From positions 1 through 13,005 of the forward strand of contig JAIVIH010000028.1 in NCBI GenBank assembly GCA_020200615.1: 13,005 nt of DNA. The letters run 5' to 3'. Positions within the stretch are counted from its first letter, which is position 1; each line of letters begins with the position of its first letter. Below are positions 741 to 10,871 of the stretch, one piece after another. The notes beneath the pieces were generated by a model. It was not told the origin of the DNA, did no database searches, and saw nothing but the letters and a program-made list of their open reading frames with translations. The translations under genes and the position numbers were made by a program. This DNA is from Actinomycetota bacterium (lineage in GTDB: Bacteria; Actinomycetota; Acidimicrobiia; Acidimicrobiales; AC-14).

Positions 741-1415
741 CTGCCCAAGTTCGTCCCCGTCCTCCGCAGGGCTGAGGCCCGGGCCTCGGCCCTGCCGCGT
801 GCACACCGGTTCAATGCCGCCCTCTATGCCTTCGCTCTGATGGGGCTGGGTCTGATCGCGGCCGAGGTCCGCCAAAACGACGGCGCCGACCGCCAGGTGC
901 GATCGCTCCCACGGGTCGTCACCGAGACCACCCAGCCCAAACCGGCGGAATCCGTCAGGCCGCGTCCGGTCCAGGAGGCGGCGCCCGCGTCGCCCAGCGA
1001 GCCGGTCGTCAGCGCCACCGAGGACGGGTCCAGCGGGACGGGCCCGGTCACGGCGGGCGTGCCGGCTACGGACGGGTCAGGGCAGGGAGCTGAGATCCTC
1101 AGCACCACGACCGAGACGGTGACTTTCGAAACCGTGGAAGTGCTGGCGGAACTGACCGGACCGGCGGACGCCGCGCCCCCTTTGCCTCCGCCCGTCAACT
1201 ACGTGCCGCCGGCGCCCCTGTCGCTCGTTCCTCCGGCCGGCGCGCCCACCCTGCCCAGGCCGGGGTCAGACTTCAACGCCCTGCCCGACGGGTCCCCGAT
1301 CGTTCCCGGCCCCTCAATACGGCCGCCCGGCGACCTGGATCTGGATCTGGAGGAGCCGTCGGAGCCGTCGGACCCGACCTTCTCGGGCCCGACGCCGGCC
1401 AAAGCACCTGCGTAA
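741..1415 (+). CDS. Membrane-anchored Pro-rich hypothetical protein (CTG start)
   Basis: I do not recognise a family. The frame is open from 723 to the TAA at 1415 and has GC-rich third positions. The first ATG (840) falls inside the only hydrophobic segment, whereas a strong Shine-Dalgarno GGAGGAG (730-736) sits just before CTG 741. A CTG start gives 224 residues: a basic N-terminus (PKFVPVLRRAEARA), one membrane segment around residues 24-42 (NAALYAFALMGLGLIAAEV), then a low-complexity Pro/Thr/Val/Asp-rich tail likely outside the membrane. The C-terminus contains DLDLDLEE and PSEPSDP runs. The last ~215 bp are antisense to the 3' part of grdA; its final codons lie opposite conserved GrdA sequence, so this gene may also have lost its original end. 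If ATG 840 is the start, the product is 191 aa without a proper anchor. Confidence 0.55.
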   Translation: MPKFVPVLRRAEARASALPRAHRFNAALYAFALMGLGLIAAEVRQNDGADRQVRSLPRVVTETTQPKPAESVRPRPVQEAAPASPSEPVVSATEDGSSGTGPVTAGVPATDGSGQGAEILSTTTETVTFETVEVLAELTGPADAAPPLPPPVNYVPPAPLSLVPPAGAPTLPRPGSDFNALPDGSPIVPGPSIRPPGDLDLDLEEPSEPSDPTFSGPTPAKAPA

Positions 1416-1693
1416 GCCGGATCCCCCAGCACCACCGTCTCCGCTGATATCTCGGCTGCCTCCGGATCGGGGGCACCGAGCAGCACTAGGAGTTCGGTGG
1501 CGCCGTGGGTCTCAGCCAGCCGGGAGATTGCCTCCTGGCTCTGCAGGTCCATGGCGCCGGCTGCGGTTCAGACGAAGCACTCCGTGGCGACGAACACCAC
1601 ATCGCCTCCCGCAGCCTTGACGCAGGCGGCGATGGCTGGGCCCGAGATGCCGTCCCGTTCGCCGAGAGCGATGACCTTTCTACCTGCCAGCAT
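1199..1693 (-). CDS. grdA: GrdA, selenoprotein A of glycine/betaine-type reductase (in-frame TGA = Sec)
   Basis: GrdA is the small redox selenoprotein shared by glycine, sarcosine and betaine reductases; its selenol takes the carboxymethyl group from protein B. From ATG 1693 the frame reads 41 codons, crosses TGA at 1568-1570, and continues to a stop at 1199, giving 164 residues. Family hallmarks lie on both sides of the [16 protein letters not shown] before, then [17 protein letters not shown], with redox pair C39/U42 (CxxU), then [17 protein letters not shown] and [12 protein letters not shown]. Similarity I can recognise stops at about residue 101. Residues 102-164 (Gly/Ser/Arg-rich) do not resemble the usual GrdA C-terminus and lie opposite the Pro-rich gene. 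ATG 1693 is 6 nt past the trxA stop, with a GGGGG run as possible RBS; GTG 1699 is an alternative. Last gene of the operon. Identity is firm; activity of the altered C-terminus is uncertain. Confidence 0.88.
1517..1570 (-). promoter_or_regulatory. Sec codon and candidate SECIS hairpin in grdA
   Basis: TGA (1568-1570) is followed on the minus strand by a layered stem: CAGCCGG with CCGGCTG (7 bp, 1557-1563 with 1517-1523), then GCC/GGC, then CCTG/CAGG closing the 6-nt loop CAGAGC about 24 nt past the UGA. The loop distance fits bacterial SECIS elements. The pairing was found by eye; competing folds exist in this GC-rich RNA. Confidence 0.5.
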
Positions 1694-1699
1694 GCACAC

Positions 1700-2035
1700 T
1701 CACCCCCTCTCGGCCGTGAGGCGCGCCAGCGATTCGTCCACCCAGTCGCGCAACGCAGAGGCGGTGACGTCGGCCCCGTCGAGGCGGTCGACCTCCTGGC
1801 CGTCGTGGAACATGAGGAAGGCGGGCAGGCCCATGACCTTGAGCTCCATGCACAGCCGGCGGGCCTTGGGCGCCTCCAGCTTGACCACCTTGAGATCTGC
1901 CGACTTCTCCTCGGCCAACCTCGCGACATCGGGCATGAGGGCCATGCAGGGGACGCACGACGTTCCCCACACATCGACCAGGGTCACACCCTCGGCGACC
2001 AGGTCGCGGAACGTCTCCTTGGTTGCTTCGACCAT
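1700..2035 (-). CDS. trxA: Grd-associated thioredoxin, CVPC active site
   Basis: A 111-residue cytoplasmic thioredoxin expected to pass electrons to the selenoproteins of the reductase. The fold signature VDVWGTSCVPCMALMPDVARLAEE is present. The active site is Cys-Val-Pro-Cys instead of Cys-Gly-Pro-Cys, which I recall as the form found in thioredoxins of clostridial glycine reductase operons, as is the following ALMPDV. The cis-proline region is MGLPAFLMF. I start at ATG 2035, whose A is also the last base of the grdC TGA (TGATG), implying translational coupling; GAGAGG lies a few bases upstream. A TTG at 2038 is a possible longer start. It ends 6 nt before grdA. No thioredoxin reductase gene lies in the window. 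There is a third cysteine in RRLCMEL. Confidence 0.9.
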   Translation of the reverse strand: MVEATKETFRDLVAEGVTLVDVWGTSCVPCMALMPDVARLAEEKSADLKVVKLEAPKARRLCMELKVMGLPAFLMFHDGQEVDRLDGADVTASALRDWVDESLARLTAERG

Positions 2036-3486
2036 CAAGTACCTCTCGCGTTGCGCTCGAGCACCACGCTCATTCCATCGGACAGCTGGCTGAGGCGCCC
2101 CAGGAAGAGGCTGCCCTTGGCCAACAGCATGATTCTGCCCGCATCACCTTCGGTAAGGCGATTCCGGGCGTGGGGCAGGTAGCAGAAAGCCGACGCCAGG
2201 TGTCCCTGAGTGGGGGAAAAGCCGGGCATGCCTCTGGACTCGACGAAGCCGGCGATGCCGTCCCGCTCGATGTCACCCCTGCGGGCGGCGAGGGCGGCGA
2301 TGGTCCGGTAGTTCCGCTCGGGGACGTTCCCGGACCCCTGGGGCTCGGTGATCTCCGGGTTGTGGAGCTCGGTGGCGAAGTCGTCCACGTCGGTCGTGGT
2401 GAGCCCCAGGCGGGTGAGGGGCTCGATGGCTAGGGCCTCCATGATCTGGGGGTTGGCCCCCCCGGCGGCCACCCGATGGCGGCCGACGGCGTCCAGCCGG
2501 ACGCGCGGGGACACGCCGTCGTCCCGCTGGACCAGAGCGGCGGCCCCGCCCAGCACGTCCTCGAGGACGGGCAGGTCGTGGCTCAGGTGGCCCTGGAACT
2601 TCATGCCCAACTTGGCCAGCGAACCGCCGGCGACCACCGCCACCCGCTCGAACACACCCGCCGCCACCAGGCTGGACGCGATCACCAGGGCCGGGATGGG
2701 TGCGGCGCAGAAGTTCTTGACGTCGGCGCCCGAGGCCTCGGTCAGGCCGGCGATGCCGGCCACGGTCTTGCCCAGGTTGCCCCCGCCCCGTTGATAGCGG
2801 TCGCCGATGGCCTCCTCACCGCAACCGATCACGTAGTCGATGGAGGCGGGGTCGATCCCGTTGCGATCGAGGAGGTGGAGCAGGGAGAGGGTGGCGGTGA
2901 CCTTGGAAGCCAGGTTCTCGAGGAGCACGTGGGCCGCTAGGGACTCGTCGTCCAGCTGGCCGGCGCGGATGGTCCCGGCCAGGCGCCCGTCCCGGGTGTG
3001 GAGGGTGAGGACCCCAGGCTGCTTGGCCACGGTCTCGACATCGCCCACTGCGCGCTCGATCCGGTCGACGCCGAGGGTCTTGGCCAGGGCGTGGGTGTTC
3101 AGGGCGGCGGCCGCCCGCTCGGCCACGTCGGGCGCCAGGGTGATGAGGTCGAACTCGTCCACCGCCGCCAGCAGTCCCAAGAGCTCGACCTCGGGGATGA
3201 CCTCGCCCGACGGTCCGACGCGGTCCCCGCCGGTGGTGACGGCCGTCCACGGCCGGGCGGGCAGGTCGCGAGGATGGACGGATCCGATGTACGCCTGGTG
3301 GGGCGGGTAGGCCACGGCCTCCTCGAAGGTGCGGAGGGAGGTGAGGAAGGCTTTCTCGACGTCGGGGTTCTTGGGCAGCTCGCGGCTCGGCTTGGACCCG
3401 AGACGAGCGAGCCCTGGGGCATGGGCCAGCACTTGGGTCGCGGCCCGCACCACCACGGTGGGCACGGTTGGTTCGGCTGTACTCAC
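2035..3486 (-). CDS. grdC: GrdC-like protein C subunit (glycine/sarcosine/betaine reductase complex)
   Basis: Protein C of Grd systems resolves the Se-carboxymethyl group of GrdA into an acetyl thioester and releases it to phosphate as acetyl phosphate. This 483-residue thiolase-like protein matches the GrdC subunit: LAHAPGLARLGSKPSRE and EAVAYPPHQAYIG near the N-terminus, GCGEEAIGDRYQRGGGN (221-237), VKNFCAAPIPAL with Cys260, SLAKLGMKFQGHLSHDLPVLEDVLGG (289-314), PGFSPTQGHLASA, and a C-terminal KGSLFLGRLSQLSDG. Family length is about 510. The start is GTG 3486; GAAGG lies roughly 12 nt upstream, and the N-terminal pattern begins soon after. It sits 30 nt after the fused protein-B gene and overlaps trxA by one base. 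Its usual partner GrdD is absent from the window, so either GrdD is elsewhere or the acyl group has another acceptor. Confidence 0.9.
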   Translation of the reverse strand: MSTAEPTVPTVVVRAATQVLAHAPGLARLGSKPSRELPKNPDVEKAFLTSLRTFEEAVAYPPHQAYIGSVHPRDLPARPWTAVTTGGDRVGPSGEVIPEVELLGLLAAVDEFDLITLAPDVAERAAAALNTHALAKTLGVDRIERAVGDVETVAKQPGVLTLHTRDGRLAGTIRAGQLDDESLAAHVLLENLASKVTATLSLLHLLDRNGIDPASIDYVIGCGEEAIGDRYQRGGGNLGKTVAGIAGLTEASGADVKNFCAAPIPALVIASSLVAAGVFERVAVVAGGSLAKLGMKFQGHLSHDLPVLEDVLGGAAALVQRDDGVSPRVRLDAVGRHRVAAGGANPQIMEALAIEPLTRLGLTTTDVDDFATELHNPEITEPQGSGNVPERNYRTIAALAARRGDIERDGIAGFVESRGMPGFSPTQGHLASAFCYLPHARNRLTEGDAGRIMLLAKGSLFLGRLSQLSDGMSVVLERNARGT

Positions 3487-3516: not shown

Positions 3517-6141
3517 TCAGCTTTTCACTTCGAAAATGGTCGGCTCGTGGACGGAGGTGGACACCGCTTCGAGGGCCGTCTCCACCAGCCGGCGGCGCCA
3601 GGCGTGCTCGGCCTCCGGATCGAGGGACGGGTCGCCCGCGGGATAGGGAATGCCCCGGGTGGGGACGATCCGGGGCGCTCCCACCCGGACGGCGATGGAC
3701 GTGAGGTTGCACAGGAGGGCGGTCGGAATACCCGCCCGCTCGAGCTCTTTGGCCAGCGTTGCCCCGCAACGCGTTCCCGTCCCTCAGGTGGACGTGAGGA
3801 TCGCCGCGCGCGCTCCCGAACGGCGGAGGTCGGCGGCCCACTCGATCCCGAACCGCTGGGCGCTGCCGACAGCGGTGCCGTTCCCGGCCGTGACGAGGTA
3901 CGCAGGGTGCAGGCTCCCGATCCGGCCCTCGGACTCCAGCTCACGGGCCACGTCGAGGGGCAGGATGCGGTGCGGGTCGGCGTTGGCCCACTGGGTGGAG
4001 AAGCCCCCGTGGACCGAGCGCCACTCGCCCGCGGCCAGGGCGTCAACCCCCTCCAGGGGGTAGCGGAGCCATCGCGTGGCCCGGGCCGACTCCAGGCCAT
4101 CGGGGTTGGCGTCGGGCACGAGCGCACCTTCGGTGACCAGGGCGACAACCGCGGTGGCCACGTCGTCCACCGGAGCCGCGGGCGCCACCCGGTCGAAGCG
4201 GGGGAGGGGCACCTCGGTCACGTCCCGGTCACCCCCCAGCCGGGCCAGCACCATGTCGACCGCCCGCTCGGCGGCGTTGCGTTCGACCAGGACGTTCCGC
4301 CGCGGGACCTTGCCGACGCGACCGTCGTCGGCGGTGAGCGTCTCTCCTGCAGCGAGCTTGGCCGCTGCGGCGGCCAGCCGTTCGAGCGAAGGGCCCATGG
4401 TGCGGGCCGCCTCCCCGGCGGCCACCACGGGTGCCGCACCGGCTTCGTCCACCCCGGGGTTGTCGCCGTGGAGCGCAGCCACCGCGGCGAGCCCGGTGGC
4501 CTGGGCGGCGGCCACCAACCGGGCGCAGGCCAGGCCGTAGCGACCGCTGGTGAAGGCGGGCCCTGCGACCAGCAGATCCGGCTCGGCCGCCTGCACCAGG
4601 GCGAGGACCTCTTCGGTGACAGCCGGCCCGGAGACGGCGTAGTCGTCACCGCAGAAGACGGTGGCGACGACCTCGAAGCCCGGCCCCAGGAGGTCGGCCA
4701 GCTTGCGGCCGGGCCCCACGGGGCCAGGACGGGAGTCGGCCCCCGTGTTGGCCGCGTCCTCTCCTCCAAGCCCGGCGAAGAACTGGTTCACGTAGTGGAC
4801 GACCCGGATGGGCCCGTCGTGTGGTGCCCGCTCGGCGAGGGGCGCCCCCTCGGTCGCGTCCTGCTCGCGGCAGGTCAGCCGGCCCCACCCCACGGGGCTG
4901 TCGGAGCCGTAGATCACGGCCACGGGCAGTATCATCTCGGCCGTGGCCGGCACGTCCAGCAGGGCCAGGCGCTCGCCGCCCAGGGCCCGGTCGACCGCCG
5001 GCAGGGTGATCCTCTCGTCGTAGTTCCCGGAGCTGACCATGGCTGTCGCCCGGTTGGGAGGCACGACGATGGGCGGCCCGGTGCCGTCGGGCCCCGCCAT
5101 CTCGGCGAAGATGCCGACGGCTGTCACGCCCCGCTCCTCGAGGGCGTCCATCTTGAGGGCCATGTCCCCGTCGGCGTTTCCTCCCCCCTCCTTGGTGACG
5201 ACGGCGGCGTCCCATCCAAGGGCGGCGCCCAGCGTGCCGGCGTGGGCCGACGTGAGCTCCTTTTGGGTGGCCTCGACGGGCTCGGGTGAGATCACGAGCC
5301 CGGCGAACGTCAGGTCCTGACCGTCGCGACAGCGGAGCTCGGCCAGCACCGGGTGGTTCTGGTGAACGAAGGTGGGGTTCTTGAGGGCCGGGTGCCCGAA
5401 CTGCCCGCTGACCACGGCCCCGTCCTCCACCTCGGTCGCATCCAGGAGAGTGGGGAGGGAGGTCCCGAAGCTCCGGCCGTAGACGTACACGTCCTTGAAC
5501 GAGCCCTGGGTCTGCAGGTTGGTGATCGCACCCACCCGGGGGAGCGCCCCTTGCCCGGCCCGGGCTCCTGGGGCCACCGCCGGCAGCTCCTCCACCTCGT
5601 CCGGCTCGGCGTCGAGGGCGGCGTCGGCCAACCGCACGGCCGCCTTCAGGAGGCCCAGCCGCAGGGCGCGGTCGACCTCGGCCCAGTCCGCTTCGGGAGC
5701 GGGGACGAATTCGACGACCAGGTTGTGGGTCGAACCCAGGGGGGAGAGGGCCGCGCCCGGGCCCGAGAGGTCCACGAGGGCTTCCTGAGCACGAGGCAGG
5801 TAGCCGGCCGCCACCACGGCTGCACCCCGGAGGACGTGCGTGACCCCACCACCGGCGGCGCGGGCGGGACCGACGAAGCCGGGGAACATGCCGCCTCCCC
5901 CCGCAGCCTTGGTGCGAGGCTCCACCGCGTCCAGCACCTTCACGATGCGGGCTGAGTCGCCGGGGGATACCCACGACACCTCCACCGAAGCGAGGGCAGG
6001 CGAGGTGAAGCAGGCGGCGACATCGTCGGGGGCCACGGTGAGGTGGCTGTCCTCGAAGCTGGTTGCGTTGCCGAGGCTCACCGCTCGCACGTGGTGAACC
6101 ATCCGGGTCAGGGCGGTCTTGAGGGCAGGTTCGGCTGGCAT
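3517..6141 (-). CDS. grdEB: Fused GrdE-like/GrdB-like selenoprotein, protein B of a glycine/betaine-type reductase (in-frame TGA = Sec786)
   Basis: Protein B binds the substrate amine and transfers its carboxymethyl group to GrdA. Here both subunits are one 874-residue polypeptide. Residues 1-425 match the GrdE/G/I subunit (EPRTKAAGGGGMFPGF, THVLRGAAVV, TNLQTQGSFKDVYVYG, VHQNHPVL, KEGGGNADGD). After a ~20-residue linker, residues 445-874 match GrdB/F/H, starting RVVHYVNQFFAGLGGEDAA. Gene callers would stop at TGA 3784-3786, but the frame continues 88 codons with the conserved GrdB end: ILTST-U-GTGTRCGAT, ERAGIPTALLCN, GDPSLDPEAE. Sec is residue 786 (~342 of the GrdB part, close to the usual ~350). 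Oddities: the GrdE Asn-Cys processing site reads Gln247-Phe248, and UxxCxxC reads UxxGxxC. These, with EGGGN and GPDGT, hint at a betaine-type (GrdI/GrdH) rather than glycine enzyme. ATG 6141 has no Shine-Dalgarno; ATG 6102 is an alternative. First gene of the operon. Confidence 0.9.
3756..3786 (-). promoter_or_regulatory. Sec codon and bacterial SECIS hairpin in grdEB
   Basis: The UGA at 3784-3786 is followed by a perfect 7-bp hairpin GCGTTGC-GGG-GCAACGC at 3772-3756 on the minus strand. The GGG loop starts about 18 nt after the UGA, within the range for SelB-recognised elements, and G-rich apical loops are typical. The stem is compact, with no mismatch or bulge. Confidence 0.75.
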
Positions 6142-6179
6142 CAGGGGGGCACGCTACCGAGAATTGCGATACTGCAGAA
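6142..6179. promoter_or_regulatory. 38-bp divergent start region between grdEB and the methyltransferase
   Basis: Only 38 bp separate two divergent start codons and neither has a Shine-Dalgarno sequence. On the plus strand TGCGATACT (6165-6173) looks like an extended -10 placed 7 nt before GTG 6180, consistent with leaderless transcription. On the minus strand TAGCGT (6149-6154 region) precedes ATG 6141 by about 10 nt. No convincing -35 is visible on either strand. Any promoters for the two genes would overlap. Confidence 0.35.
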
Positions 6180-7022
6180 GTGGGGGAAGCGGCCCGGCGG
6201 TGGCGACAGCTGGTGCGGGCCCGGATGGCGGAGATGGACCGCTTGCAACCGGGCGCAAGTCCCCTGGCCAATCCCGCGTTCTGGGACCGCCGGGCGCGCC
6301 GGTTCGCAGCAGGCCCCATGCGCTCGGCCGAGGGCGACCCGCTCCTGTCCCGCCTGCGCCGGGCGGTCACCCCTGCCCGCAGCCTCCTCGATGTGGGATC
6401 GGGACCGGGGCGGTTCAGCCTGGCCCTCGCCCCACGGGCCCGATCGGTGGTGGCCGTGGATCCCAGCCGGCGGATGCTGGCCATCCTGCGACGGGAGGCC
6501 CGGGAGGCGAACCTCGGCAACATCCGCACCGTCACCGGCGCCTGGGAGGACGTGGACGTCGAGCCGGCCGACATCGTGCTCTGCTCCTACGTGCTCCCCC
6601 TGATCGCCGAGGCCGGCCCGTTCCTCACCAAGCTCGACCGCTCGGCCCGCCACCGGGTCTTCCTGTACCTCGGCGCCTTCGCCAGCGACGCCATGGCCGA
6701 CCCTTTCTGGCGGCACTTCCACGGCGCCCCTCGCCGCCCCGGTCCCAGCTACCTCGACGCCGTGGCCGTGCTCGACGAGCTGGGCATCCGTCCTGACGTG
6801 GAGGTGGTGGAAGTCACGGTCCGCACCCGGCACCCCACCCTGGAGGCCGCGGTGGAGAACTACCGCGACGCCCTAGTGCTCGCGAAGACGCCAGCCGTGC
6901 GCCGGGAGCTGGCCCGCCTGCTGGAACCTTGGCTCCAAGCGGCCGATGGAGGCCTGCGACCGCCGTTTCGGAGCCACCCGGCGGCCGTCCTCAGTTGGTC
7001 ACCGGCGGGGGCGGGGCGATAA
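6180..7022 (+). CDS. Class I SAM-dependent methyltransferase
   Basis: A 280-residue cytoplasmic Rossmann-fold methyltransferase. The SAM-binding motif I is SLLDVGSGPGRFSLAL (68-83), with the acidic ribose-binding residue at VVAVDPS (91-96), a motif II/III region TVTGAWEDVDVEPADIVLCSYVLPLI, and an N-terminal NPAFWDRRARRFA segment common in this superfamily. The substrate cannot be told from sequence; the C-terminal half (residues ~160-280) carries no motif I know. Start GTG 6180 is chosen as the longest frame and because it sits just behind an extended -10; ATG 6225 is possible. It is divergent from the grd operon and 39 nt upstream of the amine-oxidase-like gene, so it may be co-transcribed with that gene. 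A role in methylated-amine metabolism would fit the neighbourhood but is only inference. Confidence 0.85.
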   Translation: MGEAARRWRQLVRARMAEMDRLQPGASPLANPAFWDRRARRFAAGPMRSAEGDPLLSRLRRAVTPARSLLDVGSGPGRFSLALAPRARSVVAVDPSRRMLAILRREAREANLGNIRTVTGAWEDVDVEPADIVLCSYVLPLIAEAGPFLTKLDRSARHRVFLYLGAFASDAMADPFWRHFHGAPRRPGPSYLDAVAVLDELGIRPDVEVVEVTVRTRHPTLEAAVENYRDALVLAKTPAVRRELARLLEPWLQAADGGLRPPFRSHPAAVLSWSPAGAGR

Positions 7023-7061: not shown

Positions 7062-8624
7062 GTGGTGGAGGTCGACGGGTTCCTCGGCTACCCGGACCTG
7101 TCGGTGACCCCGACCCGGCGTCACCGGCTGCCGAACGAGGAGGAGCACGCGTGGGCACGGGAAGTCCTTCGCGTCGACCCCGAGCTCGCCCGCCGCCTCG
7201 ACGAGGGCGAGCTGAGTACCTACCGGCCCCTGCCCCCACTGGCCAGCAGGGCCACGCCGGACGGATCCGTCGACCGGGCGGTCACGGTGGGCCTCCGCGA
7301 GGTCACTCCCAAAGGCGTACGCCACCGGGTGGTGGCCGTGCGGGCCGCCGACGGCGAGGTGCTGGACGACGTCCCCGGTCTGCCGGAGGGCGACCGGGAG
7401 TTCGGCGTTCCTGACGGGCCTGAGTGCGGGCCCGGCAGCGGCGACAGCCAGGCTCGAGTCCGTGTCTGGCGGGGCGAAGAGCTGCTGTGGGACCTGCTGG
7501 TGGTGCGCCCGTCGGCCTCCTCCGGCGTCAACGGGTCGGGGGTCGAGCTGCGGACCGTCGACTACCGGCGGGTGCGGGTCCTGCACCGGGCCCACCTTCC
7601 CGTACTCAACGTGGCCTACGAAGGGCCCGAGCGGCCCTCTGAGCGGGGTGCCGGGCCCGAGCGGCCCTCTGAGCGGGGTGCCGGGCCCGAGCGGCCCTCT
7701 GAGCGGGGTGCCGGGCCCGAGCGGCCCTCTGCGCGGGGTGCAGGGCCGACCCACCGGCTCTGGCTCAACGAGGAGGCGTGCTTCGAGGCGGAAGGTGACG
7801 AGCCGGTGGCTGGCTTCCGGGTCTGCCAGCAGCCGCCCACCACCATCCTCGAGCGGGGCGAGGGCGGTGGCGCTTTCCGGGGGGTGGCCCTCTTCGTAGA
7901 CGGAGACGAGCTGCTGATCGTCAGCCAGCTGCAGGCGGGATGGCACCGGTACGTGAACGAGTGGCGGCTGGCATCGGACGGGACCATCCGCCCCCGCCTG
8001 GGCTTCTCGGCCGTGACCAACCCCTGCACCGGTGAGCCCCACATCCACCACGCCTACTGGCGGCTCGACTTCGACGTGGTGGCCAGCGACAGCAACCAGG
8101 TGCAGGAGTTCAACGACCCCACCCTGCCCGGCCAGCTCAGCCCCTGGCACACCATCCGCTACGAGGTTCGCCGTCCGCGCGACCCGGAGCGCCAGCGCCG
8201 CTGGCGCGTCCGCAGCATCCGCATGCCGCACGGATACACGCTCGTTCCCGGCGCCGGTGACGGGAGCGCGGACGCTTATGGCGTAGGCGACGTCTGGATC
8301 GTGGCCTACCACGGGGACGAAATCGACGACGATCAGGGCTGCACGCGCGATCCCGCCGATTCCCGTGCCCATCTCGACCGGTTCGTTTCGGGCGAGATGC
8401 TCGAGCGCCAGGACGTGGTCCTCTGGTACTCAGCTCATGTCCGCCAGGACGCAGACGCCGCCCCCGAGGGATCCGGAGGCCGCGTGGGCCCCGACCTGGA
8501 GCCCTACAACTGGCGGCCGCCGTCCGAGCGGGGGCCCTACATCCCGATCGAGCCCCCTCCTCAGGACGACCCCGACGACGACGACCCGGGCCCGCCGCCC
8601 TCGGAGCCGGCCGCTACCGAGTAG
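7062..8624 (+). CDS. Copper-amine-oxidase-like protein lacking the TPQ tyrosine
   Basis: A 520-residue protein resembling the catalytic beta-sandwich of copper amine oxidases, which oxidise primary amines to aldehydes with TPQ and copper. Seen: WHRYVNEWRLASDGTIRPRLGF (294-315), HIHHAYWRLDFDV (327-339) giving the paired His copper ligands H327/H329, and a distal candidate ligand H459 in DVVLWYSAHVRQD. The TPQ-forming Tyr of the Asn-Tyr-Asp/Glu motif should fall near 294-296, where the sequence is Trp-His-Arg, so classical amine oxidase activity is doubtful. Residues 10-150 resemble a degenerate N-terminal domain. Residues 188-229 are a tandem-repeat insert. The tail is Pro/Asp-rich. No signal peptide is visible. 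GTG 7062 (or 7065) follows an in-frame stop at 7047-7049 and only a weak GCGAGG. The 3' end overlaps the convergent pseudogene by 64 bp. Family call moderate; function unknown. Confidence 0.7.
   Translation: MVEVDGFLGYPDLSVTPTRRHRLPNEEEHAWAREVLRVDPELARRLDEGELSTYRPLPPLASRATPDGSVDRAVTVGLREVTPKGVRHRVVAVRAADGEVLDDVPGLPEGDREFGVPDGPECGPGSGDSQARVRVWRGEELLWDLLVVRPSASSGVNGSGVELRTVDYRRVRVLHRAHLPVLNVAYEGPERPSERGAGPERPSERGAGPERPSERGAGPERPSARGAGPTHRLWLNEEACFEAEGDEPVAGFRVCQQPPTTILERGEGGGAFRGVALFVDGDELLIVSQLQAGWHRYVNEWRLASDGTIRPRLGFSAVTNPCTGEPHIHHAYWRLDFDVVASDSNQVQEFNDPTLPGQLSPWHTIRYEVRRPRDPERQRRWRVRSIRMPHGYTLVPGAGDGSADAYGVGDVWIVAYHGDEIDDDQGCTRDPADSRAHLDRFVSGEMLERQDVVLWYSAHVRQDADAAPEGSGGRVGPDLEPYNWRPPSERGPYIPIEPPPQDDPDDDDPGPPPSEPAATE
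7623..7742 (+). repeat. Four 30-bp tandem repeats inside the amine-oxidase-like gene
   Basis: A 30-bp unit beginning GGGCCCGAGCGGCCCTCT runs 7623-7652, 7653-7682, 7683-7712 and 7713-7742. The first three copies are identical; the fourth differs at two bases (GAG to GCG, final C to A). It encodes a 10-residue repeat GPERPSERGA. Because the unit is a multiple of three, changes in copy number keep the frame. It lies in the linker between the N-terminal and catalytic-like regions. Confidence 0.97.
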
Positions 8625-10314: not shown

Positions 10315-10719
10315 TCACGCCTGGGAAGGGCCTTGACCGTTCTCCGTCCGGTCGTCCTGACCTTCGATGGTGAAGACCTGGGTGAGACCGCAGATCTCCA
10401 GCACCTTGGCCGTGGCCCGCGTGGGCGAACGCAGCACCACGTCGCCCCCCGCCCCCCGGAACAGCCGGAGGCTGGCGACGAGAGCCGATAGCCCGGATGA
10501 GTCGATGAAGGTGAGGCCTTCGAGGTCGAGCGTGACCTGACGCGCCCCCTCGTCGTAGAGCCGCTTCAGGCCCTCTTCGTACGTGGGGATGGTCACCATG
10601 TCGAGCTCGCCCAAGAGGCCGACCGTGGCGTTTCCGCCATCGGCCCAGATCCGCAGCTCGAACCCCTGCGTTGAGCCCGTTCGGAGCACGGGCTCAACTT
10701 CCGGAGAGCCGGCCGTCAT
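10315..10719 (-). CDS. STAS-domain anti-sigma factor antagonist
   Basis: A 134-residue cytoplasmic protein of the SpoIIAA/RsbV type. Such proteins bind an anti-sigma kinase and free a sigma factor; the kinase inactivates them by phosphorylating a serine. The STAS domain spans about residues 20-120: VGLLGELDMVTIP (33-45), then VTLDLEGLTFIDSSGLSALV (62-81) with the phospho-acceptor serine in DSSGL (74/75), and a C-terminal RATAKVLEICGLTQVF. The last ~15 residues are polar tail. I chose ATG 10719 because it overlaps the preceding small ORF by ATGA and has GGGAGG upstream (about 13 nt, rather far); ATG 10794 is an alternative that would cover half the small ORF in another frame. Third gene of the GAF-ANTAR operon, ending at the shared hairpin. 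The partner kinase and sigma factor are not in the window. Confidence 0.9.
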   Translation of the reverse strand: MTAGSPEVEPVLRTGSTQGFELRIWADGGNATVGLLGELDMVTIPTYEEGLKRLYDEGARQVTLDLEGLTFIDSSGLSALVASLRLFRGAGGDVVLRSPTRATAKVLEICGLTQVFTIEGQDDRTENGQGPSQA

Positions 10720-10871
10720 GACGCTTGTGGAACCTCCCACTCGACGGAAAACTGCTGCTCGTCCTCCTCTAGGCGCGGATCCGGGTTCGGCCACGATGGG
10801 AACTGCGGTCGGTAGGCCCCGGCATCGGGCTCGCCGTCCGGGGACGCTTCCGTGCGGAACGGAAAGGTCAT
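10716..10871 (-). CDS. 51-residue small protein coupled between GAF-ANTAR and STAS genes
   Basis: This short frame runs from ATG 10871 to TGA 10716. Its start overlaps the GAF-ANTAR stop as ATGA, and its stop overlaps the STAS start as ATGA, so all three genes are joined by translational coupling. A good Shine-Dalgarno GGAGG lies about 10 nt upstream of the ATG. The product is hydrophilic, rich in Pro, Glu and Asp, with two Trp (SWPNPDPRLEEDEQQFSVEW), and has no membrane segment or known motif. Its exact fit between the two regulators argues for a real gene; it could bind a partner in this regulatory pathway, but I recognise no family. The longer STAS start at ATG 10794 would be the main competing reading. 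Confidence 0.65.
   Translation of the reverse strand: MTFPFRTEASPDGEPDAGAYRPQFPSWPNPDPRLEEDEQQFSVEWEVPQAS

Follow-up and report, generated by a model that had tools for sequence, protein, structure and literature searches.

The window, by which we mean the whole 13,005-nucleotide stretch of DNA analyzed here, probably encodes a one-chain, pyruvoyl-free, and unprocessed protein B that belongs to a GrdD-less selenium reductase of oxidase-bearing Actinomycetota. The fused protein would correspond to the substrate-activating "protein B" of a glycine reductase-type selenoenzyme system. A sequence-only reading of the same DNA had proposed a GrdE-GrdB fusion selenoprotein read through an in-frame TGA, and retranslation of the open reading frame (ORF) gave the same coordinates and lengths (785 residues, 874 residues, and a tail of 88 codons). 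The genes lie on the minus strand in the order EB-C-Trx-A, and the features are as follows.

3517..6141, minus strand: grdEB fusion gene, 874 residues, with predicted selenocysteine (Sec) at residue 786 and the terminal TGA at 3519-3517
4870..6105, minus strand: GrdE-like domain, residues 13-424, on the basis of PF09338
4810..4869, minus strand: 20-residue linker, residues 425-444
3520..4809, minus strand: GrdB-like domain, residues 445-874, on the basis of PF07355 and TIGR01918
3784..3786, minus strand: in-frame TGA, predicted Sec U786, motif TST-UGTGTRC
3756..3772, minus strand: SECIS-type hairpin directly 3' of the TGA, stem GCGTTG/CAACGC, loop CGGGG
2035..3486, minus strand: grdC (component C subunit beta), 483 residues, NF040746 546 bits against a cut-off of 450
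1700..2038, minus strand: thioredoxin-like gene (PF00085), found at the same position in many relatives
1391..1693, minus strand: 5' portion of grdA, including a predicted Sec TGA of its own at 1570-1568; the remainder of the gene is absent

How the fused gene is read depends on one codon. Under translation table 11, the ORF (3784-6141, minus strand) starts at the ATG at 6141, stops at the TGA at 3786-3784, and encodes 785 residues; when that TGA is read through, the frame gains U786 and 88 more residues and ends at the TGA at 3519-3517. Both domains were recognized in this single frame, as PF09338 (GrdE type) matched residues 16-424 with 332 bits and PF07355 (GrdB type) matched residues 445-785 with 359 bits (Pfam cut-offs about 22). 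Moreover, TIGR01918 matched across the TGA, at residues 446-871, with 422 bits against a cut-off of 65. Curated cut-offs were thus passed over both domains, and the protein is a member of the protein B superfamily. The AlphaFold model of the fused protein was confident, and a structure search with that model returned nothing beyond generic matches. We note that the start of grdEB and the start of a divergent methyltransferase-like ORF are about 38 bases apart (6141-6180), which leaves little space for separate promoters.

Fusion of the two domains was also found beyond the window, which supports a GrdE/GrdB-type fusion. Both domains shared one chain in 29 of 37 protein-search matches (P0002-P0030), with linkers of 19-38 residues. 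That search scored the 7990 candidates sharing the most words and was limited to lengths of 481-1531 residues, and hence it was blind to separate subunits. The other eight matches (P0031-P0038) were frame-scrambled or partial ORFs and were kept outside the fused count; one of them, P0031, joins E and B in one frame across its readable middle. In genome contigs, 34 loci among the best 80 of 568 formed a close clade with the window, and within that sample E and B were separate in 33 clade loci and fused in L002 alone. In 20 of the 33 unfused relatives (again among the best 80 of 568 loci), the E stop and the B start overlap as ATGA, GTGA, TTGA, or TGATG. Because many unfused relatives have E and B in different frames with a short overlap of a few bases, one indel could join them, and the fusion could in principle be an artefact of assembly or sequencing. 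We find that explanation scarcely credible, however, as a single indel at the overlap would not create the linker of 19-38 residues that is inserted in the 29 fused matches, and P0002, a separate database record of 616 residues that is 99% identical and possibly comes from the same organism, is fused as well.

The history of the fusion is not simple. When the linker was removed and a tree was built from both domains (64 rows, quick method), three changes were required to account for the fused state, and the window fell inside a 21-row all-fused group (SH-aLRT 99). A single clade of all 29 fused rows was rejected (AU p 0.0004). Both trees that were built used the quick method, and P0027 is a long branch; the first excluded L059 and P0030 and had 7 outgroup loci, and the second excluded L030, L048, L059, P0002, and P0030 and had 5. 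Judged by these trees, the fusion arose more than once or was repeatedly undone. If it arose several times, the starting point would have been overlapping genes whose translation was probably coupled. It is plausible that fusion locks a 1:1 subunit ratio, with E and B probably coupled in translation already.

The in-frame TGA appears to encode selenocysteine. Every clade sequence with a tail (31 in total, 30 relatives from the best 80 of 568 loci plus the window) carries the TGA, followed by GTGTRC. Four loci had no usable tail and stand outside the Sec counts, L002, L058, and L059 because the tail is cut off by a contig end or the edge of the stretch and L054 because its frame is disrupted. 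In L054, the GrdB frame is broken at the Sec region, at about 12262 (TAPGSPPSS, not TATUGTG), by either an assembly error or a lesion. When these relatives were compared with the window over the 79 codons that follow the TGA, the differences at codon positions 1, 2, and 3 were 345, 261, and 1164 bases, respectively, and none of the 2370 codons was a stop. The tail is counted as coding because of this conservation and not because the frame is merely open, since an open frame by itself is little proof in GC-rich DNA where a 580-residue antisense ORF (3547-5289, plus strand) overlaps grdEB at the same place.

The hairpin behind the TGA is conserved at the level of codon choice. Its Arg codon is CGT in 31 of 31 sequences, while CGT accounts for 6.1% of Arg codons in the upstream part of those genes; its Ser codon is TCA in 20 of 20 (3.4% of Ser codons upstream) and its Ala codon is GCA in 10 of 11 (4.3% of Ala codons upstream), all counted in related sequences (clade loci among the best 80 of 568) that are not independent of one another. 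Across 75 distinct sequences, Bacillota included, changes on both sides of the stem occurred at 4 of 6 pairs, and 94.9% of stem cells paired compared to 83.9% in shuffles. The outermost pair failed in 17 of the 75 sequences, and a hairpin shifted by +2 retained half of the covariation score (0.109 versus 0.213). Among clade members only, the stem is almost invariant, and no both-side change was seen. The fold energy of the window hairpin was unexceptional (z -1.2, with 23 of 200 shuffles equally good), and no Rfam match was found. Together, the TGA in 31 of 31 sequences, the hairpin, and the codon bias point to TGA-encoded Sec and a SECIS element downstream of it.

The machinery for selenocysteine was sought in the genomes of relatives, which also supplied the data on GrdD and oxidases and whose proteins are 58-76% identical to that of the window. 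Genomes for 24 of the 34 clade loci (drawn from the best 80 of 568) were searched. Each of selA, selB, and selD was over its cut-off in 23 of 24 genomes, and tRNA-Sec was over its cut-off of 47 bits in 20 of 24, at 55-77 bits; that cut-off is a loose marker, as control genomes passed it in 5 of 14 cases compared to 2 for selB. In G002, the genome from which the fused relative L002 comes, selA, selB, selD, and tRNA-Sec are all present. The sequence-only reading had named two results that would count against it, the absence of selenocysteine machinery and homologues that end naturally at the TGA without a conserved tail. Neither was borne out, as the machinery was present in most of the 24 genomes and 30 relatives keep the tail. 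Alternatively, the TGA could be a plain stop, so that the product is 785 residues and the tail a remnant. Gene calling with table 11 does stop at 3786-3784, and 25 of the 29 fused database proteins reach this codon, and all 25 terminate there, in T-S-T or T-A-T, as the earlier reading had expected of standard annotation. We regard a plain stop as very improbable nonetheless, given a tail with coding-type divergence and no stops, a TGA kept in all 31 clade sequences with a tail, conserved hairpin codons, and the presence of selB and tRNA-Sec in the genomes of most relatives.

What kind of protein B the window encodes is indicated by its active site. Glycine reductase-type enzymes are usually taken to use a pyruvoyl group for amine substrates. 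In Clostridioides difficile GrdE, that group is at the N terminus of the peptide starting at aa242 and is derived from Cys, according to passages of PMC9908766. At the equivalent place, the GrdE-like domain of the window reads SGQFGHP instead of SGNCVSAC, with F248 in the pyruvoyl column, and the precursor Cys is absent. Among the best 80 of 568 loci, all 35 clade sequences had F, Y, or L in the pyruvoyl column and none had Cys, which occupied the column in 27 of the 46 sequences from outside the clade. The fused proteins examined, 21 in all, had only F or Y there and no Cys. Loss of the pyruvoyl Cys is thus common to fused and unfused clade members. Moreover, the Sec motif is UGTGTRC (UxxGxxC) and not UGTCTRC, and the middle Cys was gone in 31 of 31 clade sequences, while UxxC was found in 43 of the 46 sequences that lie outside the clade (both from the best 80 of 568 loci).

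An ordinary protein B active site does not fit these data. We consider it quite unlikely that the window encodes a normal glycine reductase protein B that is merely fused, with a pyruvoyl-dependent GrdE, a UxxCxxC GrdB, and glycine as the substrate. The domain matches point to the glycine reductase protein B superfamily and the neighbors of grdEB are GrdC, Trx, and GrdA, but the glycine reductase GrdB model TIGR01917 scored 391.4 bits, below its equivalog cut-off of 602.2, compared to 662.8 for the control GrdB of L028. In addition, the pyruvoyl column lacks Cys, the middle Cys of the motif is lost, and GrdD was found in none of the 24 relatives' genomes. Given the loss of both the pyruvoyl Cys and the middle motif Cys and the miss with the glycine GrdB model, the fused chain most likely is not self-cleaved. 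The same signature would make a primary amine an improbable substrate.

The closest known systems share parts of the window's arrangement. Like clostridial glycine reductase, the window has both domain families of protein B (GrdE and GrdB), Sec in a TST-U-GT context, a SECIS-type hairpin at the same place, and GrdA (Sec), GrdC, and Trx as neighbors. It differs from clostridial protein B in being one chain with no pyruvoyl Cys, a UxxGxxC motif, and a score below the TIGR01917 cut-off, and its relatives differ from the clostridial system in having oxidases and no GrdD in their genomes. The unfused actinobacterial E-B pairs (L001, L003, L005, L068, and others) have the same active-site signature, gene order, and Sec, show 58-76% identity, and lack GrdD in those searched; they differ from the window in having separate genes for E and B, which overlap or lie next to each other. 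The sarcosine GrdF and GrdG models were missed, at 414 and 214 bits against NCBIfam cut-offs of 800 and 780, and the fluoroacetate FarE model was missed, at 125 bits against 675, but five control E subunits also fell below the GrdG and FarE cut-offs, so the models are strict and a miss is weak evidence. In betaine reductase, GrdH and GrdI are encoded by separate genes, and the GrdH model scored the window at 368 bits against a cut-off of 775. GrdI is stated to be without the pyruvoyl Cys pair, and hence without self-processing, in the part of PMC10838667 consulted, and in this it resembles the window. The same part of that source describes FarEB, the fluoroacetate reductase of Cloacibacillus porcorum MFA1, as lacking both Cys residues for pyruvoyl formation and as having no full CxxC in its B part while keeping Sec (PMC10838667). 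FarEB and the window therefore share, as far as those passages go, a pyruvoyl-Cys-free E part, an incomplete CxxC in the B part, and a retained Sec; FarEB differs in its separate genes and other neighbors (PMC10838667), and the window differs in keeping the last Cys (UGTGTRC). No published GrdE-GrdB fusion or GrdD-less actinobacterial system was found in the titles and abstract openings of the papers listed, with few subscription journals covered, or in the passages of PMC13188914, PMC2398784, PMC5029168, and PMC9751293 that were consulted.

In the 24 genomes searched, GrdA was found in all 24, with one internal TGA each, and GrdC was found in all 24, over its cut-off in 23. GrdD (component C alpha, NF040747) was found in 0 of 24 at an E value of ≤1e-10 and had no match in an NCBIfam scan of 18 window ORFs. 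A complete glycine reductase system, one that includes GrdD, was thus found in none of these 24 genomes. The control search was positive in 10 of 15 genomes, which are the 10 of 10 grd-bearing Bacillota, Spirochaetota, and Synergistota. The loss of GrdD is not special to the clade, as GrdD was equally absent from the other 5 of 5 genomes, which are divergent and nonactinobacterial. Two E/B pairs occur per genome or contig in nonactinobacterial L033 and L055 (one Burkholderiales genome, G035) and L050 (Acidobacteria), and GrdD was not found in G035. Among the fetched loci, GrdC retains the Cys of its FCAAP-type motif in 94% of the clade and 100% of 16 others, and it has a Cys in AFCYLPHA (column 490) in 91% of the clade and 0% of the 16 others. 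Another GrdC Cys is present in 62% of the 16 others and 6% of the clade. It is possible that these Cys changes, including the gain in AFCYLPHA, are linked to the missing GrdD.

The window's own operon copy may be nonfunctional. GrdC is complete in the window, and GrdA is represented by its 5' part only, broken near 1394. Homology to grdA ended at about 1391-1397 in 15 of the 15 best-scoring matches listed, with 25 relatives as queries. The ORF at 1199-1693 (minus strand) is GrdA up to ...ALAG(V) and unrelated to GrdA in the remainder, and a proline-rich ORF at 840-1415 (plus strand) overlaps the break. Perhaps the operon is decaying, grdEB being intact by recent inheritance only and the pathway dead in this strain because grdA is truncated, and the consistent end of the grdA homology favors that explanation. 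We think it unlikely, however, as grdEB and grdC are full length with undamaged frames and clade members ordinarily lack GrdD. In addition, an assembly join or a recent rearrangement could explain the break, and the genome could carry an intact grdA at another site. Of the fused relatives, L002 alone belongs to one of the 24 genomes searched, and a contig edge precedes its Sec codon. In that genome, C-Trx-A lies on contig C294 (L099), apart from the E-B contig, and no E-B was found in the 8.5 kb examined around C-Trx-A on C294. Its GrdA is 91% identical to the window GrdA part, and its Trx and GrdC are lower, at 72-77%. Elsewhere in the window, a 520-residue ORF (7062-8624, plus strand) that holds the in-frame repeat GPERPSERGA has a copper-amine-oxidase-like match of 26.5 bits, just below the cut-off of 27, and an anti-sigma-factor-antagonist family protein is encoded at 10315-10794 (minus strand; TIGR00377, 68 bits, cut-off 53).

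The relatives are equipped for oxygen. A haem-copper oxidase (COX1) was found in 24 of 24 clade genomes compared to 0 of 10 anaerobe controls, the latter being 10 of the 15 GrdD control genomes. The clade genomes belong to Actinomycetota (Acidimicrobiia, Thermoleophilia-type families, and others) and include one Dormibacterota metagenome-assembled genome (MAG). Oxidase genes in MAGs are evidence of a capacity for O2 respiration, not of an enzyme that works in air. Taken together, the gene content marks a GrdD-less variant that spans the clade, whose bacteria are equipped for O2 respiration.

How such a protein might work can be proposed from known chemistry. SelB would insert Sec at U786, the E domain would escape self-cleavage, and the fusion would persist as a single polypeptide. 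U786 then could attack C2 of an X-CH2-carboxylate with a leaving group that can depart without a Schiff base; such a leaving group has been argued in print for fluoroacetate, and GrdI suggests the same for betaine. The carboxymethyl group would move to the Sec of GrdA, GrdA would be rereduced by thioredoxin, and GrdC would accept the acetyl group. Because GrdD is missing, the product probably passes to coenzyme A or another acceptor and is not released as acetyl phosphate. We speculate, and only tentatively, that an actinobacterial lineage that respires O2 has a selenium reductase independent of GrdD, in which one unprocessed, pyruvoyl-free EB protein acts on a nonamine or quaternary X-CH2-carboxylate and GrdC alone acetylates coenzyme A or another acceptor.

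Glycine reductase and its kin are usually seen as Stickland-type enzymes of anaerobes that yield acetyl phosphate via protein C (GrdC/GrdD). Here, a clade keeps both Sec proteins and GrdC without a recognizable GrdD, the pyruvoyl Cys, or one active-site Cys, and E and B appear to have merged more than once in a clade whose searched genomes all carry haem-copper oxidases. For annotation, the consequence is that grdEB-type genes are cut at the Sec codon, as in the database proteins above. Two points are directly testable, namely, the chemistry of protein B without a pyruvoyl group and the destination of the GrdC acetyl group without GrdD. If the tentative scheme is true, there would be a selenium-dependent route to acetyl coenzyme A outside the strictly anaerobic Stickland world.
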